From Hemileia vastatrix (lineage: Eukaryota; Basidiomycota; Pucciniomycetes; Pucciniales; Zaghouaniaceae): 64,000 nucleotides of DNA. A program made the translations under genes and the position numbers. Location: contig JASXTE010000007.1 of NCBI GenBank assembly GCA_030280995.1, positions 14,561,501-14,625,500 of the forward strand. Direction: 5' to 3'. Below the pieces are notes generated by a model. It had not been told where the DNA came from, did not search any database, and was given only the letters and a program-made list of their open reading frames with translations. Of this stretch, positions 18,075 to 64,000 are shown piece after piece; positions within the stretch are counted from its first letter, which is position 1, and every line of letters begins with the position of its first letter.

Positions 18075-18745
18075 ATGTCCACATTCTCCTATACCACAAC
18101 CACCATGTTCAGCTTTCTTTCCAAATCTGCTACTGACATGGGCCCCTTCCAATACTGCATTGAAAATAATCTAATCTGCACCATCACACCTCCAGCCCAT
18201 CCATACAGAACGTCCTGTGATGTTTGCCACTCCAGAAAGAAGACCTTCCACAGACCTGGTCCATTATCCTCTGCAACACCTTGGCCTCCACCTCAGCCTG
18301 GTCCATCTTCTACCAGCACCAAAAGATCTAGGCCATCCATCCTGATACCTAGAATCATCAATAAGCTACACCCTTCCCAGAAGAGTGCCACAACTCTTAA
18401 AACCACAAGTTCCACCGTCCCTGGTACATCTGATGGTAAGGAACTTTAATTTCTTCCTTCAACTTTAAAACTGATGACCTCTCAGTTCCTCCATCTTCTG
18501 ACAATGATGATGACACTGTAGGATCTATTGCACCACCAACACCAAACCACTTGCCCACAATTAAGGCCAAGCTCCAACAACACACATCTCAACAGAGGCA
18601 ACTTCTTCTTCACTACTTCCAATCCACTCCTGCTAGAGATCCACAGGACATTGAGAAAAGAAGGCACCTCATCCATCAGTTCAAGGCTAATTCTGAACAC
18701 TTCATTTCATCTCTTGATTCCCTCTGTAATTCTACTAGTACTTGA
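18075..18745 (+). CDS. 3a opposite-strand gene 1: Zn2Cys6-like protein, spliced
   Basis: Exon 1 (18075-18435) and exon 2 (18486-18745) are joined by a 50-nt intron (GTAAGG...CTCTCAG); the join keeps frame and gives about 206 residues. Residues 25-58 match a fungal Zn2Cys6 cluster as in copy 3b, but Cys1 and Cys6 are Phe here (F25, F58), so this copy should not bind two zincs. A Pro/Ser-rich basic middle follows, then an acidic patch (SSDNDDDT) and a Gln/His-rich helical end. The ATG is only 18 nt from the LTR, so its promoter would lie in the LTR, reading against gag-pol. I do not know its function; DNA or RNA binding is inference. Confidence 0.7.
18436..18485 (+). other. Intron of opposite-strand gene 1
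   Basis: GTAAGG donor, CTGAT branch-like site (aaactgatgac) and CTCTCAG acceptor; 50 nt. Without splicing the frame stops a few codons later (DGKEL-stop). Confidence 0.7.
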
Positions 18746-19322: not shown

Positions 19323-20837
19323 ATGGCCGGATCTCCTAATGTTGACCCTTCTAACCTTCCTTGCTTCACTACTACCAAGGACTATGCCTGCAAGCAGTGC
19401 ATCCACATGTGCAGACCTTTCACATTCACTCTTCCAGCTCCTGAAGCCAAACTCTACAACAAGGCCTGTGACTCTTGCTACTCCAAGAAGAAGAAATGTG
19501 ACAGAGACGCAAATTACCCTATTCCTCCTCCTTCACCTTCTCATAAATACCTCTCAAGATCCCCTACCAGATCCCCAGAGCTTGGTCAATCCTCTTCCTC
19601 TTTATCTTCAGCACCTTCCAGAACTCTTCCCAAAGAACCAGACTTAGATCCCCAAGAAGCAGATTTTATCTCCACTAATCCAGCTTCAAAAGCTTCGAAA
19701 TCGGCTCCTAGGCTGCTAGAACGCGTCCAGGCGGCCTGCCCGCCTCACTAGACAGTGAAACTCTGGCTCAAAACTTCCAAAAACAACAAGAAAAGAACCA
19801 AATTCCTCCAACCAACAAAAAAAACTCTAAGCAACCACCCCCCACTGCTCCCAGAGCAATGAATCCAACCTTTCCAAGGTCAAAAAATACCAAATTTTCC
19901 CAAACTTCTAAGAGACCCACCAGAGGACTTCAGGAAGGCACCAGAGCCCCCAACACAGCACCAAAGCAAAATCTTCACCCCAAGTTAAGGCAAAGAACCT
20001 ACACCTCTCCTCTTTCAGCCATCTATTCTTCTGACAGTTCCATTCCTTCAAGAGCTCCATCCAAAATAGATCAATCCGCTTCCAGATCACCCTCTCCTGC
20101 TCCATCCTATAAAAACCTTGGTACTCCATCACCAGCACCTCATCCAACTGAAACCAACCCAAATATTAACAACAACAACAACAGCCCTGCTGCTCCAACT
20201 AGGCCCCAGGAACATCAGCCTCCTAGTTCACCTTCTCAAAAACTTTCAGAGGAAGACCAAGAGAATCCATATCTTTCCCTGATTGATCCCCAAGCTATCA
20301 CCCTTTCAAAATCTTCAGAAGTCCAAATCCTGGCTGCTTACAAATTTGATGAGCTCCCAATCTGTAAAAACCAAATTAATTCATCCCATTTCTTCAGTAA
20401 CCAAAAATAATTAATGATCCAATTCTTCTAGTCTAGTTGGCACCCCTCCCCCTGAATCTACTATTGGAGTTGGCCAACCTCTTGAAACTTCATTAAACTT
20501 GGATTATGGAGACATGAAGCAACACCTCAGTACCATGTGTTCTAACATGCTGAAAGCCTTTGCTCTCCATGGACCTTTAAATGACTTTGAGAAATCCCTG
20601 AGAAAGCAACTGTTGGAGGACCACTGGAAGATTTCTAGGATCATGAAGCACACATTCCAGCACTCCATTCCTGCCTCTTCTTCTTCCTCCTCTAATCTTC
20701 CTTCTAATCAAATTCCTGCCCATTACAACCCGCACCATATTTCCAGCAGGATCAACTTCAAGGATCACCACACTTCCCACAATCCCAACAAAAAGCAAAA
20801 ACGTCAACACAATACAGACCAGCCTCCAGAAGCTTAA
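19323..20837 (+). pseudogene. 3a opposite-strand gene 2: Cys-cluster protein, spliced, one frameshift
   Basis: The first part (19323-19751) starts MAGSPNVDP and has a cluster CX2CX3CX18CX2CX6C at residues 23-59 (ACKQCIHMC ... ACDSCYSKKKKC), like Zn2Cys6 but with Cys3 moved. A frameshift near 19690-19735 breaks it. The reading goes on in another frame to 20370 (Pro/Ser-rich, ending DELPICK), then an intron to about 20433, then a helical end (DMKQHLSTMCSNMLKAF, GPLNDFEKSLRKQLL) with a basic tail to 20837. Copy 3d keeps the same intron with a clean GTAAGT donor; here it is GTAAAA. It lies between integrase and LTR on the strand opposite pol. Function unknown. Confidence 0.65.
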
Positions 20838-30483: not shown

Positions 30484-30762
30484 ATGTCCACATTCTTTCT
30501 TCCTCAAACCACCATGTTCAACCTTCTTCCCAAACATGCCTCTGAAATGGGTCCTTGCCAATACTGCATTGACAATAATCTAATCTGCGCCATGACACCA
30601 CCTGTCCATCCATACAGAAAGTCCTGCGATGTCTGCCAATCTAGAAAGAAGCCCTGCTACAGACCTGGTCCATTATCTTCTGCAATAGATTTACCCCCAC
30701 CTCAACCTGGTCCATCTTCTACCAGCACCAAAAGATCTAGGCCATTCATCCTGATACCCTGA
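30484..30762 (+). pseudogene. 3b opposite-strand gene 1: intact Zn2Cys6-like cluster, truncated
   Basis: I choose the Met at 30484, which matches the 3a start; the longer frame upstream runs into the LTR. Cysteines at residues 25, 28, 35, 48, 51 and 58 give CX2CX6CX12CX2CX6C, inside the Zn2Cys6 consensus, with SRKKPC after Cys5. A stop at 30760 and loss of homology at about 30825 cut the rest. This copy shows the ancestral cluster that 3a has partly lost. Confidence 0.75.
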
Positions 30763-30825
30763 TTAATCAAAAAACTTCACCCTTCTCAGAACAGTGCCAC
30801 AACCCATAAAACAACAAGTTCCACC

Positions 30826-53174: not shown

Positions 53175-53450
53175 ATTTGTTTCATTTTTTATTATTTCCT
53201 TCAATTTCTAATTTTTTATCTTAAATCATTTAAAATATTTAAAGGTGTATCCACATCAAGGTACACTTGGATATGGGTAAGGTATCAGGGGATCAGCTCA
53301 TCGATTGGCTGGGGGATATCATTTGTAATTATTATTTATTTCATATTATTTTATTCATTTCATTTTAATTTTTCAGCTCTCATAATTTTGTTGGGTGATT
53401 TTGTTTAATTATTTTCAAACTTTTTTTAGTATGTTAGTAGCTTAGTAGTT

Positions 53451-53861
53451 AAAAATAAAAATAAAAATAAAAATAAAAATAAAAATAAAAATAAAAATAA
53501 AAATAAAAATAAAAATAAAAATAAAAATAAAAATAAAAATAAAAATAAAAATAAAAATAAAAATAAAAATAAAAATAAAAATAAAAATAAAAATAAAAAT
53601 AAAAATAAAAATAAAAATAAAAATAAAAATAAAAATAAAAATAAAAATAAAAATAAAAATAAAAATAAAAATAAAAATAAAAATAAAAATAAAAATAAAA
53701 ATAAAAATAAAAATAAAAATAAAAATAAAAATAAAAATAAAAATAAAAATAAAAATAAAAATAAAAATAAAAATAAAAATAAAAATAAAAATAAAAATAA
53801 AAATAAAAATAAAAATAAAAATAAAAATAAAAATAAAAATAAAAATAAAAATAAAAATAAA
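53451..53861. repeat. (AAAAAT)n microsatellite, about 68 units
   Basis: Near-perfect hexamer array of 410 bp within 3d. At the same place 3a (about 20900-20960) has only ordinary AT-rich sequence, so the array grew in this copy. The long FYFYFY and IFIFIF frames here are artefacts of the repeat. Confidence 0.97.
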
Positions 53862-54081
53862 CAAATTTTTTTATATATTTGTTAGTCATTATTACTTTTT
53901 TCTATTTATTGAATTATAAATTCTTTTATTTAATGACGTGATGAAGAAGCTTCCGGCGGTTTGTCCGGATTGTGCTGGTGTTTTTGTTTTTTGTTTGGAT
54001 TAGATGTAGAACTGTGTCTTTGTAGTGCAGGCTGCTGGAAAAGATATATGGGTTATAGTGGTCAGGTACCGCATCAGAAGG

Positions 54082-54465
54082 TTAACTTTGTGAAGAAGAG
54101 GAAGAAGCAGGAATAGAGTTCTGGAAGGTGTGCTTGATAATTCTAGACATCTTCCAATGCTCATCAAGGAGTTGTTTTCTCAGATTCTTCTCAAAATCAT
54201 TCAATGGACCATGGAAAACAAAGGCCTTGAGCATGTTAGAACACATCAGGCTAAGGTGTTGCTTCATATCAGTATTATCCAGCTTCAAAGTAGTTTCTAG
54301 GGGTTGGCCAATTCCAAATGCAGCTTCAGGAGGCGGGGTTCCAACTAAACAGAAGAATTGGATCAATAATCATTCTTTGTTGAAGAAATTAGATTTTTGT
54401 TATTTTATTTTGGTACTTACAGATTGGTAGATCTTCAAATTGGTATGCAGCCTGAATATGGACGG
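54082..54465 (-). pseudogene. 3d opposite-strand gene 2, two exons at the 3' end
   Basis: The upstream exon ends at 54421 (QFEDLPICK), intron 54345-54420 (76 nt, GTAAGT donor, GTTTAG acceptor), next exon from 54344 (VGTPPPEAAFGIGQPLE, DMKQHLSLMCSNMLKAF, GPLNDFEKNLRKQLL, IPASSSSS) to a stop at 54082. 3a has the same exons. The 5' part with the cysteine cluster is lost to 3c. Confidence 0.75.
54345..54420 (-). other. Intron of 3d opposite-strand gene 2
   Basis: 76 nt, GTAAGT...GTTTAG, flanked by coding sequence that is conserved in 3a while the intron itself is not. Confidence 0.75.
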
Positions 54466-55077
54466 TGTAGACAATCCTAAAGTACTAGCTATAGGCCTTG
54501 ACCAAGGGAGTTGGGGTATAACCTGAAGAAAAACCCCTGTCCCTTAAGAAAAATATAGTGAGATTTACCTGTTACATTAAATTGGTTCTTGTTACCACAA
54601 AAGCCCTTTTCCAAACACACTTGACTGCTGATCAGTCAAGAAAGTAGTCTCCAGACAGACTACCAAACCAAAGAACTGAAATGCAGACTAATGTCCTACC
54701 ACAAAAAGCAATGATACTTGATGTAGGTTGGAAATCCACACCAGAGACAGCAATGATACTTGCTATAGCTTGCAAGACTATAACAGAGAAAACAGTTGCT
54801 AAGCTAAGTTAAATGAAGAACTTACTTGCAAAAAAAACAGCCAAATTGTGGCCAACAACAGTGAAAACTGAGTGAGGAACAAGGATATCACCACCAGATG
54901 GTTGAATGATAATTCAAGTTGCCCCCCAATCTGTCTTCCTCACTATATACACATAGACTACTAATCAAGAGCCCATGCACAACTGCAAATTCAGCGTTCC
55001 TGAACACCTAATTGCACAAAACCTCCTTAGAAGCGCATCCAGCTCTCTATAACTGAGGCAGACAGTCTGCCCGCCTG
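54466..55077 (-). repeat. Family 3 LTR 3c, left part (interrupted by element 4)
   Basis: From TGTAGACAATCC to the GC-rich patch, where element 4 starts after GCCTG. It continues at 63576-64000 and leaves the window. Whether it is solo or part of a full element cannot be seen. Confidence 0.88.
55073..55077. repeat. Target duplication of element 4, left (GCCTG)
   Basis: GCCTG directly before the LTR; repeated at 63571-63575 after the other LTR. Confidence 0.93.
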
Positions 55078-55849
55078 TGTCACTGGACAACCTACGCACA
55101 AGGTCGAGGATGTTCCTGAAAGTGAGATGAGGGATTTAGAAACTTCTTCAAAGCACAGAGAAATGATTCGAGGAAATGGTTCAAAGGTCACTCGAAGTAA
55201 GAGCTACAGGTTCGAGGTTCGTTTGAGAAGAATTATAAACTAGTTTCAAAGGTAATAGGAATTCTTAAGATCTCACGAAGGGTTGGAAACTCAATAATCA
55301 AAGATTTAGGATTTAGAAATGAATATTGAGAAAATAAAAGAAAGATACAATAACAATGATTTTAACTTTAAAGATTTACCACTATTAATGTAAATATGAT
55401 TTTATAATTTAATTCTAAGGAATATTGAACCAAATACCTAACCCCTTTTATATCCTTTGTTCCTCCTGGCATTGACCTCCCTTCCATCGCACCATTCCCA
55501 TTCCATTGACCATTACTAACATACACTTAGACCCTCTTCGCTAAATATCCGTCCATGCTCAATTTACCCCTTTTTAATTAATTAACAAAACTTTAATGAA
55601 AACTACTACTGTACTATTTCGTTGAACCTAGCGCTGTGCGTCGCTTATTGAAAAGGACTAAGGCACCCTATTGGGAGATTGACTAATTTAGATTTAGAGT
55701 TTAGACTAGCGCAGTTAAATAGTAAGTACACAAAGGAGAATTGCAGTTGCTATGGAGAATTGCTTTCTGCGCTTCGAGTATAGATTTAGGACTTGATATT
55801 ATTGATTTAATGAGCTGCTTTCGCCTCAAGTGTCACGTGGCGCGTGACA
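55078..55849 (-). repeat. 3' LTR of element 4, 772 bp
   Basis: TGTCACTGG to GCGCGTGACA on the + strand. The last 19 bases form a 7-bp inverted repeat TGTCACG/CGTGACA with CACGTG inside. A TATAAAAGG box lies on the - strand near 55446-55455. Confidence 0.95.
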
Positions 55850-55859
55850 GATGCCCGGG

Positions 55860-55865
55860 TATAAG
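55860..55865 (+). promoter_or_regulatory. Possible TATA box of the opposite-strand gene
   Basis: TATAAG lies 11 bases inside the LTR border and 100 bases before the ATG of the Zn2Cys6 gene, on its strand. No purine tract is present at this border. Confidence 0.4.
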
Positions 55866-55959
55866 AATTGTGAACTCAGTTGAGCTTGAGCCATCCTCCC
55901 ACACTAGTTTCCCTTCTTCTAATAATTTTTTCCTCACTTATTAATTTCTCTTTTTTATA

Positions 55960-56910
55960 ATGAACTGCCCCACTCCCACACCTACGCCTCCACACCCTAA
56001 AGCGGATGGGGGAATGATCACGCGAAATTTTTCACAAACTTGCACGGCTTGTGAAAGCATGGAGTTTTTCTGTGTCGAAATTACGGCGACTCGAGGCCCT
56101 CACCAGAAATGCGAGTTTTGCCGTTGGCGACGAGTGGCGTGTGATGCGTTGACGAAGAACGCAGAGATCGAGAAGCAATTTACCAAGACCAAGTTTTGGG
56201 TAATCCCTAAAACCAAAGAGGTGGTCGAAGACATTTGGGATGTCTTGATTGAAGATGAACAATCGGTGGGGGAAAATGATAAGGAATTAAATAACGAGAT
56301 CTCAACCTGGGTAACCCAGGCCACGAGTTCAAAGTGAGGTGTCGAGGAAGAGGTTGACGAGTTGGTGGAGGAAGATGAAGATGAAGTCCCTGTTCCAGGG
56401 CGGGCACCCAAGAAACGACGGGTGGTCATCAAAGACAACGAGGAGGAGAGAGAGGCAGAGGTCGAAGTGGCGCCAAGGTTATTTTTAGAGCCTGACCCCA
56501 TCTTTGAGGTAAGTTTTAATTGTTATTTTTTAAGGATGAAGTTACTGATGAGTTATGTTTAGACATCGAATACCCTTGAAGAGCCGATTGGGGAGCCTGC
56601 GCCGGTTATACCAACTGAGGCAAACCCTCCGGCCACGGAAGTAGTTGAAGAACCTGAAGACACCCTGGACCAGGTGTGGTCAAAGAAACCTCGTCAAGGT
56701 CGACGAGTAAGGTTCGCGGAAGAATTATGTGGGAAGGTTGACACAATTATCGACGCTGCTTCCTTTGACTTGGCAGAGGAGCTCTTGGAGATGGGAGAGG
56801 TGGTTCCGGTAGGAGAGGAGGAGGTATTTGAGAAATGCAGGAAGGAGATAAGGGTAGTTTTGGAGAAAATGAAAAGATTGGTTAGAGAGAAATTAAAAGA
56901 AAAGATTTGA
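55960..56910 (+). pseudogene. Element 4 opposite-strand gene: Zn2Cys6-like protein, spliced, one stop
   Basis: Exon 1 is 55960-56508, exon 2 56563-56910, with a 54-nt intron (GTAAGT...GTTTAG); the join keeps frame and gives about 298 codons. Cysteines 28, 31, 38, 51, 54 and 61 give CX2CX6CX12CX2CX6C with a basic loop RWRRVAC, a good match to the fungal Zn2Cys6 consensus. Then come acidic stretches, a basic patch APKKRRV (possible nuclear signal), a Pro/Glu-rich part, KKPRQGRRVRF and a helical end. One in-frame TGA (56335) sits where CGA would read through. The usual role of such clusters is DNA binding in transcription factors; a role for the element is inference. Confidence 0.8.
56509..56562 (+). 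other. Intron of the element 4 opposite-strand gene
   Basis: 54 nt, GTAAGT donor, TTACTGATG branch-like region, GTTTAG acceptor, phase 0 on both sides. Confidence 0.8.
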
Positions 56911-57852: not shown

Positions 57853-58185
57853 TTAAGGTTTTGGTTTTAAAGGATATTTCAAATGAAAAGATATTAGGAG
57901 TTCAGGGGCTTTAGAAACATTGATGGCTGGTTCCCAGGATGTTTTGTCTGAGTCATTGAGGAAGCCTTCCCATTCCACGAGGTATTGAAGTTTCCCCTTG
58001 CCTATTCTTGAATCAAGGATACCACTTACTTCCCACTCTAGATGATCTTCTACTTCGACCGGTTCCGGAGGGGGTTGGTTCTTGCCCGGGTATATTTCTC
58101 GAGCCAGTTCCAGGAGAGATACATGGAAAACAGGGTGAATCGCCTGCCATTTAGGAGGTAAATTGATATATGACTTAGGATCCAA
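57853..58185 (-). pseudogene. int: Element 4 integrase end with chromodomain
   Basis: Reads INLPPKWQAIHPVFHVSLLE, then chromodomain VSGILDSRIGKGKLQYLVEW, EGF and TSWEP (aromatic cage residues present), about 110 residues. The frame to the core integrase is broken near 58200, where about 50 bases with GTATAT...TTTCAG look either like an insertion or a small intron. Confidence 0.9.
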
Positions 58186-58218: not shown

Positions 58219-59472
58219 TTAGAAATTATATACAAAAATAATGAATCTTTCAAACAAGCGCTTTTCAGCCAGTTTCTTTGATGGTCTTGTTGTTAGAATG
58301 TTTCGTGCGTCAAGCCATACTTTGTCACCTGGTTTAAAGGAAGGAGCAGATTGTCGATGTTTGTCGGCCTGTTCCTTGTATCTTCGAATCGCTGATTCCA
58401 AATTTGTTTTAATTTCTTCTTGGAGTCGTGATATAGTTAAAAGATAATGTTCCGCAGGATGATTAGTTCCTACATGGATTGAGTTGAATTGAGGATGTCG
58501 TCCATAAATGGTTTCGAAGGGAGATTGTCGTGTCGAAGAATGAGTCAAGTTATTATAAGCAAATTCGGCCAATGGTAACCATGTGGTCCAATCGTCTTGT
58601 TGGTAACTGACATACATTCGAAGATATTGTTCGAGGATTTGGTTAACTCTTTCTGTTTGACCATCGGTTTCAGGGTGATAGGCCATGGAGAGATTCGTCG
58701 TGATATTGAGTTGTCGACACAGTTGGGTCCAGAATGTGGATACAAACAATGAGCCTCTATCTGAAATAATATCATTTGGTAAGCTGTGTTTAGAAAATAC
58801 ATATTCTAGAAACAATTTTGACAAATCTTCTGCTGTAGCAGTAGTAGTGGTTTTAATAAAAATAGACATTTTTGAAAATCTATCTACTATTACTAATATA
58901 GCATCAAAATCATTAGAAATAGGAAGTTGAGAAATGAAATCCATCGATAAAGATTCCCAAGGTTTAGAGGGAATAGGAAGTGGTTGAAGCAACCCATGCT
59001 TTTGGTGATGGGGAGCCTTATTCCTATTACATTTGTAACAAGCTTTTATATAGGCCTTGATTTCCCTGGTCATACCTGGCCTGAAGAAATCCCTCGCTAT
59101 TAACTGGTAGGTTTTATCAACCCCAAAATGACCAGCTAATGGAGAATCATGCCAACTGTTGAAAATCCATAATTTTATCTCATTGTTGTCGGGTATGACT
59201 ACTCTACCTTCGAAGACTAATAGACCTGATTCAATACTAAATCTTTTGGCCCCTTGCTTCGAGAGTATTTTATCTTTTAACCCTAAACAATATTCGTCCT
59301 TCGACTGAGCTTTGAGGATGTTGGATAGTGGATTTCGAAAAGATTGAATTGTCATCGAATTAAGTTGATGAGTCGTTAACATTGATTCGTTGAAGATTGA
59401 TTGCACATTTGCTGGGTTCTTATCAGCAAATGCGTCCCCCCGCTGTGGGTAAACGTCGTCCCGACGTGACAA
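58219..59472 (-). pseudogene. int: Element 4 integrase core
   Basis: 417-residue open section. HHCC: HDSPLAGHFGVDKT and CYKCNRNK; catalytic D (SMDFISQLP), D (ISDRGSLF) and E (TDGQTERVNQ). Then FAYNNLTHSSTRQSPFE and PGDKVWLDARNI. A TGA at 59488 in place of TGG (PGKN-W-IVPDILSR) cuts it from RNase H. Confidence 0.93.
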
Positions 59473-59487
59473 GATATCTGGGACAAT

Positions 59488-60110
59488 TCAGTTTTTTCCT
59501 GGGTGATAGGAAATAGAGAAAGAAAATTCAGACAAAAATTCAGCCCACCTGGCTTGACGCCTGGTTAACACTTTAGAAGACATGAAGTATTTCAAAGCAT
59601 TATGATCTGTTAAGATTTGAAAAGGACTATCTAGGCTGAGAAGAAAAGAATGCCATTTTTTAAGACAATGGATAATAGCTAAAAGCTCTTTGCCATGAAT
59701 TTCATAAATTAATTCTGCGGCTATGAGTTTGCGTGACTCAAAAGCAACAGGATGAAACAAATTTGTTCAGGATTTAATTGGGAGATGACCCCTGCAATAG
59801 CATAATTGCTCGCATCCGTCTCAACTATTGTCGAGGCAGAAGGATCAAAATGTCGAAGAATTGGGGCTGTGGTGAACGCCGTTTTTAGTGCTTTGAATTC
59901 CTTTCGTGCTGTAGAAGTAAAAACAAAAGGAATATCTTTTCTAAGAAGAGAAGTAAGATTGGAAATAGTTTTAGAGTAATCTTTAATAAATCTTCTATAG
60001 AAGTTTGCAAAACCCAAAAATCCTTGGAGTGATTTAATGTTTTTGGGCTCAGGCCATTCCAGGATTTTCTGGACTTTCTTGTTATCCATGACTAAACCGT
60101 CAGTGGACAA
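59488..60110 (-). pseudogene. pol: Element 4 RT end and RNase H
   Basis: 59721-60110 reads FLGFANFYRRFIKDYSK, and RNase H start VETDASNYAIAGVISQ. A frameshift near 59758 leads to 59488-59760 ([39 protein letters not shown]). Active-site D, E, D are present. Confidence 0.92.
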
Positions 60111-60658
60111 TGAAAAACCAAAAAAATCAATTGATTTGAGGTGGAATTCGCATTTATTATGCTTGGCGTAGAGACCATGATCTCAAAGACGATTTAGGAC
60201 CTGTTGAACATGATGAATATGTTCATCTAGTGTTTTCGAGAATATTAAAATATCATCTAAATAGACGACTACAAAGTGTTCAACAACATCTTGAAAGATA
60301 TCATTAACAAAAGTTTGAAAAGTTGAAGGTGCGTTACATAATCCAAAAGGCATAACTAAATATTCAAAACTACCAAATCTAGTGCGCATTGCAGTCAGTG
60401 GTTCATGACCTTCCGCAATGCGAATCAGATTGTAAGCGCCTCTAAGATCAATTTTAGGAAAGAAATTAGCACCATTGAAAAGGGTAAGAAGTAATGACAT
60501 AGGAGGAACAGGATATGCATTCTTCTTCGTGACTGTGTTGAGCTTTCTATAGTCAACACACAACCTAAGACTACCGTCCTTCTTTTTTACAAAGAGGACA
60601 GGGGAGCCAGTTGGAGATTTACTGGCTCTGATAAACCTTTGGCTACATTCTCTGCAAT
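60111..60658 (-). pseudogene. pol: Element 4 reverse transcriptase
   Basis: 60183-60563 holds [44 protein letters not shown] and YLDD in [17 protein letters not shown] at 60181-60183 stands for CGA (RL-R-DHGLYAKHNKCEF). Upstream a TAA (60656-60658, LQD-stop-IAEN) and a 1-base loss near 60625 separate it from protease. Confidence 0.93.
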
Positions 60659-61539: not shown

Positions 61540-62727
61540 CTAGTTTTTTGACTTCGAACTAGTACCTTCTCTTTCCTTCAACTTTACACAGTCTTCCAAC
61601 TTGTGCTTACCCCCACAATACATACATAACCCATTATCTGCTCGTCTCTTCCTCTCAGCTTCTTTAAGTTCCCCTTTAGGATCCAGTACTTTGCTGATAT
61701 TGCCTGGGGTCGAGACTTTTGGTCGAGGTTTATCCTTTCCCTTATTGGGTTTGGATTGAGTCGAGGAGGATTGATTTGGTTGTGGGTGTGAAGAAGGTCC
61801 CGATTTAAAATTTAGGCCTTGAGATTTGTTGGCATATTGACGATGTTGAAGTTGTCCTTGATAAACGCCGTCAAGTTCGAGGGTTCGATCCATTAAATCC
61901 GTTAAAGTAGTCATCTTCTGACCGTGAAGATTTAATTGATCTAGAATCCTCGAAGGAAGTCCTTTCTTGAAATGATACTTAAGGGCAGCATCATTCCAAC
62001 CTACTCGAGTTTGAAGTGCTCTGAAGTTTGATATATATTCAGAGGCTTTACCATTATCACTCATGCGAAGAAAATCAAGTTCAATTTCCGCGTTGTCCGT
62101 TTCATTAGGTTCCCCAAACAATGTAAAAAGTTGATCTTCGAACTTTTCCCAATTATTGATAAGTAAGTGGGTTTCTGTCGAAGAAAGCATGAGTAGATAA
62201 GGTTCGAACCATCTTGCTGCTTTCCTGGCTAGGAATGAAGAAGCGTAAACAACCTTTGATCGGTTGCTGTTAAAGGTTCGAGGGTCATTATTTAACAGTA
62301 GCTTGCAGGTTTGCAAGAAGGGTCGCAATCTGTCGGGGTGATCTCCGTCGAATTTGTCAGGAGATTTCATAGAAGGAGTTTTGAACTTAGATCCCTCTGA
62401 GGACGTTGGATTTGAAAGGGTTTTCATGAAAAGTCTCATGAAATCTTCCAGAGAGTTAGATGGTCCAGGTTCTGAGGATTGGCCAGAAGGGTGATTGGCA
62501 GGGGCGGATGGTGCCTCGTGCATTGTATCCTCTCCTTCTTTTTTGTCACTAGAATCCTCAAAATCTTGTGGGATGTCTTCTACAGATTGAACTGAATGTT
62601 GCCGTTCCCTAAGGCCGAGTGGTTCCAAAGAGTGAGTGCGGGAAACAGACCTTGTGGCTGTTGGCCTGCCTCTAGCGCGAGCTCTAGTAGTAGCGCCCGT
62701 AGGAGGAGTGCGTTGAACAGGTGCCAT
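61540..62727 (-). CDS. gag: Element 4 gag
   Basis: Intact 395-residue gag with no lesion. The N-terminus is basic and then acidic. The capsid has KFDGDHPDRLRPFLQTC, ARWFEPYL, NNWEKFEDQLFTLFGEPNE and FLRMSDNGKASEYISNFRAL; the C-terminus is basic, with a knuckle CMYCGGKHKLEDC (CX2CX3HX4C, one residue shorter than usual). The ATG is 71 bases from the 5' LTR. It ends with two stops, TAG TAG, right after the slippery heptamer. Confidence 0.93.
   Translation of the reverse strand: MAPVQRTPPTGATTRARARGRPTATRSVSRTHSLEPLGLRERQHSVQSVEDIPQDFEDSSDKKEGEDTMHEAPSAPANHPSGQSSEPGPSNSLEDFMRLFMKTLSNPTSSEGSKFKTPSMKSPDKFDGDHPDRLRPFLQTCKLLLNNDPRTFNSNRSKVVYASSFLARKAARWFEPYLLMLSSTETHLLINNWEKFEDQLFTLFGEPNETDNAEIELDFLRMSDNGKASEYISNFRALQTRVGWNDAALKYHFKKGLPSRILDQLNLHGQKMTTLTDLMDRTLELDGVYQGQLQHRQYANKSQGLNFKSGPSSHPQPNQSSSTQSKPNKGKDKPRPKVSTPGNISKVLDPKGELKEAERKRRADNGLCMYCGGKHKLEDCVKLKEREGTSSKSKN
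61543..61549 (-). promoter_or_regulatory. Programmed -1 frameshift heptamer A AAA AAC
   Basis: In the gag frame the codons are TCA AAA AAC TAG TAG. A slip by -1 on A-AAA-AAC reads CTA GTA GAT and enters the protease frame. This heptamer is an established strong -1 slippery site in retroviruses. I did not fold the sequence after it. Confidence 0.8.
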
Positions 62728-62798: not shown

Positions 62799-63570
62799 TG
62801 TCACCGGACGACCTACGCACAAGGTCGAGGATGTTCCTGAAATTGAGATGAGGGATTTAGAAACTTCTTCGAAGCACAGAGAAATGATTCGAGGAAATGG
62901 TTGGAAGGTCACTCGAAGTAAGAGCTACAGGTTCGAGGTTTGTTCGAGAAGAATTATAAACTAGTTTCAAAGGTAATAGGAATTCTTAAGATCTCATGAA
63001 GGGTTGGAAACTCAATAATCAAAGATTTAGGATTTAGAAATGAATATTGAGAAAATAAAAGAAAGATACAATAAAAATGATTTTAACTTTAAAGATTTAC
63101 CACTATTAATGTAAATATGATTTTATAATTTAATTCTAAGGAATATTGAACCAAATACCCAACCCCTTTTATATCCTTTGTTCCTCCTGGCATTGACCTC
63201 CCTTCCATCGCACCATTCCCATTCCATTGACCATTACTAACATACACTAAGACCCTCTTCACTAAATATCCGTCCATGCTCAATTTACCCCTTTTTAATT
63301 AATTAACAAAACTTTAATGAAAACTACTACTGTACTATTTCGTTGAACCTAGCGCTGTGCGTCGCTTATTGAAAAGGACTAAGGCACCCTATTGGGAGAT
63401 TGACTAATTTAGATTTAGAGTTTAGACTAGTGCAGTTAAATAGTAAGTACACAAAGGAAAATCGCAGTTGCTATGGAGAATTGCTTTCTGCGCTTCGAGT
63501 ATAGATTTAGGACTCGATATTATTGCTTTAATGAGCTGCTTTCGCCTCAAGTGTCACGTGGCGCGTGACA
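62799..63570 (-). repeat. 5' LTR of element 4, 772 bp
   Basis: Same length as the 3' LTR, with about 18-19 mismatches, ten of which are CG against TG or CA. TATA box (minus strand TATAAAA) at 63167-63173. The hairpin end TGTCACG/CGTGACA is kept at 63552-63570. Confidence 0.95.
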
Positions 63571-64000
63571 GCCTGAAGCGGCCTGACCACCCCAAATCCA
63601 GAAAAACCACCAAAAACACCCAAACTACTTAGAACTACTAAAACCCTTAAAACACATAATTACACTACAACAACATTATAACATGAAATGTAGAGAAGAT
63701 TCTGCTCTTTCCAATGGTACTAAGCACTTAACCCTAAGACATAATGTGAGCCCAAAAAACACAAAAACAAAATTCATCAGCAATCTTTTCTAAAAATGAA
63801 AAGTGAGAATTTGTCCCCCAAATACTTATGCTATGGAAAATTTCCCCTTATCATAAAATATAGAAGAAAACCAGGGATATCCAATTGTAGCCACCATATC
63901 CCCATAGTCCTAATATTCACTGCGTAATTCCAGAAAAATACCCAGTTATTTGAAACAATGCCATTTAAGGAATACCAAGATACCACCAAAAAAACCAAAA
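63571..64000 (-). repeat. Family 3 LTR 3c, right part, with GCCTG duplication
   Basis: 63571-63575 is the target duplication. From there the sequence follows 30000-30400 of the 3b LTR (GAAGCGGCC ... ACCACTAAAAACACC) to the window end. No gene. Confidence 0.88.

Follow-up and report, generated by a model that had tools for sequence, protein, structure and literature searches.

An opposite-strand gene with a zinc-cluster cysteine pattern in a chromovirus of Hemileia vastatrix: a candidate element-encoded regulator

Extra genes on the strand opposite to gag-pol have been described in long terminal repeat (LTR) elements since the 1990s (Grande1, 1997), their function being stated as unknown in the available passages of PMC7264820. 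Here we describe such a gene in element 4, a chromovirus within a stretch of 64,000 nucleotides of the Hemileia vastatrix genome (assembly GCA_030280995.1, contig JASXTE010000007.1, positions 14,561,501 to 14,625,500; hereafter the window). The gene consists of two exons (55960-56910, plus strand), is convergent with gag-pol between the chromodomain and the 3' LTR, and encodes a six-cysteine cluster. Its frame, intron and place are kept across copies of the family (family 4), under purifying selection at the codon level. We favour, at a probability of about 0.55, the reading that element 4 encodes a regulator of its own, a DNA-binding zinc-cluster protein that sets transcription or silencing of the LTR. 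Another family in the window, family 3, carries two opposite-strand cysteine-cluster genes, designated A and B.

The Boty chromovirus of Botrytis is likewise a fungal LTR element with a chromodomain in pol and an antisense gene, brtn, between pol and the 3' LTR (PMC7264820, PMC4227169, PMC8365987). Its host, however, is an ascomycete, and the kind of protein is unstated in the available passages, the likeness being one of place and strand. HBZ of human T-cell leukaemia virus (HTLV) type 1, an animal retrovirus, is a regulatory gene in antisense, with a start at the 3' LTR and a nuclear product; it resembles the family-4 gene in antisense place, but its product, which sets LTR transcription, is a basic leucine zipper protein and not a zinc cluster. 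The available part of PMC7264820 also mentions that the HTLV 3' LTR has an antisense promoter. The aORF-3R genes of plants include gene23 of Grande and the genes of RIRE2, Retand (TRP28) and PvRetro13; according to the passages available of PMC7264820 and PMC11963269, gene23 has its own promoter and a nuclear product, TRP28 is predicted to bind DNA, and a regulatory role has been proposed for the Retand antisense proteins. The word zinc is absent from the main texts of both papers, and Retand, unlike element 4, belongs to a non-chromovirus lineage.

In LTR elements of bdelloid rotifers, extra open reading frames (ORFs) have been acquired repeatedly and shared between retroelements, as described in the available part of PMC5408684; these ORF3s differ in encoding esterase, DEDDy, coiled-coil or membrane proteins, and nowhere in the main text is zinc mentioned. 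In a 2025 study of rust-fungus elements (PMC12210899), the main text as available contains neither antisense, nor zinc, nor additional ORF. A literature search over titles and the openings of abstracts, with subscription papers mostly outside it, returned no LTR element with an antisense gene for a zinc cluster. Extra genes on the antisense strand are thus already known, while within that search none was found described with a zinc cluster. A recognisable cluster of the DNA-binding type, together with a conserved TATA element and an intron, makes the present gene a concrete case for the function of antisense genes, and raises the questions which DNA the protein binds and whether the element is switched on or off.

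Gene structure, copy number and selection

The ATG is located 111 bases inward from the 3' LTR. In the frame from this ATG, cysteines were found at residues 28, 31, 38, 51, 54 and 61, exactly as listed in an earlier note made from the sequence, with an extra cysteine at residue 3. The spacing is the same as that of gene A (the 3b gene of the note), both being CX2CX6CX12CX2CX6C, and a relaxed six-cysteine pattern occurred twice in the six frames of the 64 kb. The note had also placed the gene on the opposite strand between integrase and 3' LTR, predicted an in-frame intron of 54 nt and assigned the pol genes of families 3 and 4 to different lineages, and all three statements agree with the present results. 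The place is between integrase/chromodomain and 3' LTR; the intron search matched in 26 of 30 fetched loci (54-57 nt); and the chromodomain (PF00385) was detected in family 4 and not in the family-3 integrase frame, the two integrases being 25% identical over 218 columns.

The fetched loci include the window copy, which recurs in every sample (L002, L032, L062, L072). Exon 1 is exactly 549 nt long in 25 of the 26 loci with an intron match, the exception being L016, with a donor GC instead of GT and a frameshift; an intron of 53 nt was found in L076 of another sample. All six cluster cysteines are conserved in 26/26 aligned loci. The window copy itself is broken by an in-frame TGA at codon 126, leaving a frame of 125 amino acids, and the complete spliced frame of 298 amino acids is present in 14 of the 30 loci. 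As read from L007, the N-terminal cluster of the protein is followed by an acidic middle, then by a basic stretch (PKKRR) and lastly by charged residues at the C-terminus. Survival of the intron would follow from the opposite strand by established reasoning, because the genomic RNA holds the intron in antisense and is hence unspliced.

Probe sites for these genes number in the thousands in the 748-Mb genome, which sets aside the possibility, raised in the note, of a single copy: a 30-base exon-1 probe (up to 3 mismatches) gave 1,899 matches, a chromodomain probe 4,710 and a probe for gene A 3,384, against 0 for each reversed control. On contig C2, 16 of the 30 listed exact exon-1 sites pair with an exact chromodomain site (100 listed) at a distance of 1590-1730 bases, all in the orientation of the window and none in the other. 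Exon 2 was found, convergent, in 10/10 loci ranked by chromodomain (the window's own included), in L070 in a diverged form. For four loci picked by hand from 150 listed PF00385 matches, the downstream DNA identified three as family 4 with the gene; L088, of another chromodomain family, has no six-cysteine frame within 1.8 kb downstream. The excess of chromodomain sites over exon-1 sites may reflect diverged genes (as in L070 and L082), gene loss or elements devoid of the gene.

Selection was measured as omega, the ratio of nonsynonymous to synonymous change. For exon 1 of 26 protein-ranked loci among the 30 (L008, L009, L016 and L027 being excluded for lack of an intron match, a shifted exon end or a frameshift), synonymous (pS) and nonsynonymous (pN) differences were 0.199 and 0.023, giving omega 0.10 against a simulated mean of 0.65 (minimum 0.545, 20 runs). 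Since these loci were ranked by protein, this value is biased low, and the fairer figure is 0.31, obtained for nine of the ten loci that were ranked by non-coding DNA (excluding L079, in which exon 2 is missing), where the simulated mean for exon 1 was 0.62 (minimum 0.486, 30 runs). Exon 2 gave 0.29 in the same nine loci; in the protein-ranked set its codon count used the 22 of 29 loci with open frames. Stops in exon 1 were present in 8/26 protein-ranked loci versus 17.95/25 in simulation, and in 4/9 loci ranked by non-coding DNA versus 7.7/8.

Against a copy of a diverged subfamily, L082, found via its chromodomain, the cysteine cluster is the best-conserved part of the protein. Between L007 and L082, codons 24-64, which hold the cluster, showed pS 0.81 (saturated) and pN 0.056, while pN rose downstream to 0.12 (codons 65-101) and 0.23 (codons 102-150). 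The zinc gene of L082 is interrupted by an apparent piece of family-3 LTR.

Zinc cluster, promoter and proposed function

The Zn2Cys6 cluster (PF00172) has the spacing CX2CX6CX5-12CX2CX6-8C. Family 4 and gene A (X12) fall within this range, while gene B, CX2CX6CX15CX2CX6C in its copy L083, is outside it with X15. The fungal Zn2Cys6 transcription factors Gal4, Ppr1 and Leu3 share with the element proteins six cysteines of fitting spacing; the latter differ in scoring below the Pfam cut-off, in the seemingly reversed order of their halves and in being encoded by a retrotransposon. A fold model of gene A (predicted local distance difference test, pLDDT, 75) matched Zn2Cys6 chains in 16/16 Foldseek hits, and overlays Ppr1 (root-mean-square deviation 1.6) and Gal4 (1.9) over 36 residues. 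In standard Zn2Cys6 clusters the basic, DNA-contacting half comes first, as was seen in the six reference clusters used here (two with the first half only). For the element clusters the swapped order scored better, the number of shuffles, out of 5000, that reached the score being 10 for gene A, 25 and 10 for two sequences of gene B, and 189 and 199 for two of family 4. In family 4 the signal lies in the second half only, the first half being acidic and fitting neither reference half. In the element clusters the basic half thus seems to follow the other, in an order opposite to that of Gal4.

Upstream of the ATG (by 100 bases in the window), TATAAGAA or TATAAAAA stands at the equivalent site in 29/30 loci. 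L007 carries TATTAGAA at the TATA position; in the sample with L081, the other nine loci have TATAAGAA, and the promoter was not found by script in L081. The antisense gene would accordingly be transcribed from a TATA promoter of its own, immediately inward of the 3' LTR. Ten bases upstream of the TATA element lies an inverted repeat, its 19-base block being exact in 20/30 loci.

Under the favoured reading, antisense transcription from the LTR edge, with upstream sequences lying in the LTR, would yield a spliced mRNA and a nuclear protein of about 298 residues with an N-terminal zinc cluster. Two copies of the protein might pair through the C-terminal charged helix, noted by inspection, and the cluster would bind DNA, perhaps at the inverted repeat as a guessed dimer site, and thereby tune transcription or silencing of the element's LTR. 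The gene with its frame, intron, place and selection can be read from the sequence, while transcription, zinc, DNA binding, dimer and target are inferred. By analogy, a regulator like HBZ, or like that proposed for the Retand antisense proteins, is the most likely role.

Several observations weigh against this reading. All element clusters score below the Pfam Zn_clus cut-off of 21 bits (family 4, 12.2; gene A copies, 14.6 and 13.2; spliced gene A, 12.9; gene B copies, 14.3 and 13.7), and the Foldseek hits of gene A have E-values of 2.1 to 8.2, no single one being significant. For family 4 no usable model was obtained (pLDDT 42.5), so that its fold rests on the cysteine spacing and the family-3 model. 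The second fold prediction was built on an alignment of three cluster sequences. Searches of the protein database gave no relative of the 186-residue family-4 frame at E<=0.01 and, at E<=1, none for a protein alignment of three sequences; PDB sequence searches with those element proteins that were tried did not turn up a zinc cluster. As the integrase matched 6,675 proteins among 7,995 candidates scored, the accessory protein is either absent from the database or too diverged. Pairs of CGG/CCG of the Gal4 type were not found in the LTR or leader of the window copy, and the palindrome is the LTR end needed by integrase anyway, so its conservation alone is no proof of a regulatory site. Finally, recent copies decay: of the nine loci ranked by non-coding DNA, two have an early exon-2 stop in addition to the four with a stop in exon 1.

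An unlikely alternative is that the protein binds DNA as a cofactor of integration or nuclear import, at the LTR ends or in the pre-integration complex, and not in transcription. The identity of the proposed palindrome with the LTR end and the basic PKKRR stretch are consistent with it, as are the nuclear roles discussed for plant antisense genes in the available passages of PMC7264820. However, pol already supplies an integrase and a chromodomain, and an antisense promoter implies a timing separate from gag-pol, which is odd for a particle component.

Less probable again is an anti-silencing factor that frees the copies from host chromatin or DNA-methylation silencing, in the manner of VANC of the VANDAL elements. 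High copy number, the separate promoter and the fixed cluster beside a fast-changing tail would all suit such a factor, but sequence cannot separate it from a plain activator.

We give little credence to the cluster being a zinc-binding module for RNA or protein interaction, a nucleocapsid-like helper. The sub-threshold Pfam scores and the acidic first half of family 4 point that way; the second half, however, resembles the DNA-contacting first half of Gal4-type clusters in 5/5 sequences tested, and gag of element 4 already has a near-form of the CCHC knuckle, the motif known from gag. That the antisense transcript itself acts, by RNA regulation or double-stranded RNA of the kind discussed for LTR elements in the available part of PMC7264820, with the frame as a passenger, is very improbable and largely refuted by the codon-level selection (omega 0.10 to 0.31), the cysteines kept in every aligned locus and a cluster maintained despite saturated synonymous sites.

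Origin and exchange of the gene

From the shared place and spacing the earlier note had proposed either repeated capture of a host factor or exchange between elements, and so a recurrent function. The recurrence is supported: in two pol lineages a six-cysteine gene lies on the opposite strand in the same place, at the probe-site numbers given above and under codon-level selection. Exchange found support within the chromovirus group and not between families 3 and 4. Outside the cysteines, the clusters of family 4 and gene A are identical at 2/28 positions, and 1928/20000 shuffles were as good or better; for family 4 and gene B the number was 14861/20000, so that family 4 showed no detectable kinship with either gene. 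Identical spacing therefore indicates a shared type of fold and is not evidence of common descent, which may or may not lie behind the likeness. Between A and B, by contrast, the clusters are related (8/28 positions identical; 5/20000 shuffles as good).

Within the chromovirus group, synonymous divergence of exon 2 exceeded that of integrase plus chromodomain in 35/36 pairs (medians 0.162 vs 0.057), the two showing no clear correlation (rho 0.20, p 0.25, the pairs not being independent). The 36 pairs, of 45 computed, come from the nine chromodomain-ranked loci that remain once the outlier L070, which differs from the window copy by 0.65 in exon 2 and 0.16 in integrase, is set aside; nine of the ten loci have between one and five stops within the part of integrase that was compared. 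In the simplest reading, elements recombined with one another at a breakpoint close to the stop of pol, which would account for the deeper history of the gene, and members of the group appear to have exchanged their 3' module; a higher mutation rate in the 3' region or a homogenised pol may instead lie behind the discordance. Such discordance suggests that control modules move between elements.

For capture from the host, no donor was found. Among 150 scored of 3,254 candidates, 13 Zn_clus matches in the assembly exceeded the cut-off, 12 of them outside the large contigs of the element searches and one on C34. The four clusters read have the usual half order, as opposed to the seemingly reversed order of the elements, a mild argument against a standard Zn2Cys6 gene having been captured recently. 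The contigs that hold the 12 matches are C472, C511, C313, C446, C632, C698, C520, C89, C696, C738 and C104; several of the 12 matches lie in long uninterrupted frames, possibly of another organism in the assembly.

A wider picture is offered tentatively, the odds being somewhat against the whole of it: HBZ-like regulators with a reversed-half zinc cluster, antisense and intron-keeping, would have entered two pol lineages by separate recruitment, and a module of promoter and gene would have been traded between chromovirus backbones.

Element 4, family 3 and their surroundings

Element 4 is a full-length insertion with LTRs, gag, reverse transcriptase, RNase H, integrase and a C-terminal chromodomain, as expected of a chromovirus, all gag-pol domains being on the minus strand. 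Its LTRs, with the ends TGTCAC...GTGACA, are 97.7% identical over a 773-base alignment. Among the 120 integrase matches listed, nearly all of those that carry a name belong to the rust Austropuccinia psidii, the two highest-scoring ones carrying none; the host is thus probably a rust, in line with Hemileia vastatrix.

Table 1. Features of element 4 and of the family-3 cysteine-cluster genes (window coordinates)
Feature	Position	Strand	Basis or remark
Exon 1, antisense zinc-cluster gene	55960..56508	+	TGA at 56335-56337 in window copy
Six-cysteine cluster CX2CX6CX12CX2CX6C	56041..56142	+	pattern scan
Intron, 54 nt, phase 0, GTAAGT...TTTAG	56509..56562	+	intron search across copies
Exon 2, including the stop codon; charged stretch at the C-terminus	56563..56910	+	helix by inspection only
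Putative TATA-like core promoter of antisense gene	55858..55867	+	conservation across loci
7-bp inverted repeat, 5-bp spacer (TGTCACG/CGTGACA), inner 3' LTR edge	55831..55849	.	proposed binding site
Target-site duplication GCCTG, left	55073..55077	.	directly outside LTR
3' LTR, element 4	55078..55849	-	alignment with 5' LTR; ends read
Chromodomain, C-terminus of pol	57853..58185	-	PF00385 E 1.5e-10
Integrase	58219..59472	-	PF17921 1.4e-17, PF00665 5.5e-11
RNase H	59488..59760	-	PF17917 6e-24
Reverse transcriptase fragment	60183..60563	-	PF00078 1.1e-24
gag	61540..62727	-	PF03732 1.9e-08
5' LTR, element 4	62799..63570	-	LTR alignment
Target-site duplication GCCTG, right	63571..63575	.	directly outside LTR
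Gene A (3b gene of the earlier note)	30514..30759	+	cysteine spacing of family 4; six-cysteine pattern 30556-30657
Gene A in element 3a	18105..18446	+	two of six cysteines replaced
Gene B, second opposite-strand cysteine-cluster gene	19323..20837	+	broken in window copy

In family 3, the gene A copy at 30514 has a stop after 82 codons, and homology ends near 30825. Across 30 protein-ranked loci of gene A each cysteine is kept in 29 or 30, with omega 0.41 for the gene and 0.25 for the cluster. Genes A and B form at least 12 tandem pairs, on the same strand and 1.28-1.64 kb apart, as read by eye from two listings.

Both flanks of element 4 (54463-54978 and 63571-63969) match the family-3 LTR, and the element was seemingly inserted inside one. 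It is adjoined by a long simple repeat, (FY)n or (FI)n, at 53442-53889 and, on the minus strand, by a tail piece of gene B (54366-54082). Elsewhere, four exact exon-1 sites spaced by 7.67-7.69 kb at C19:2616586-2639641 probably represent a tandem array of element 4, the spacing being about one element plus one LTR. Three chromodomain matches of equal score about 7.1 kb apart at C26:34334265-34348614 are perhaps also arranged in tandem.
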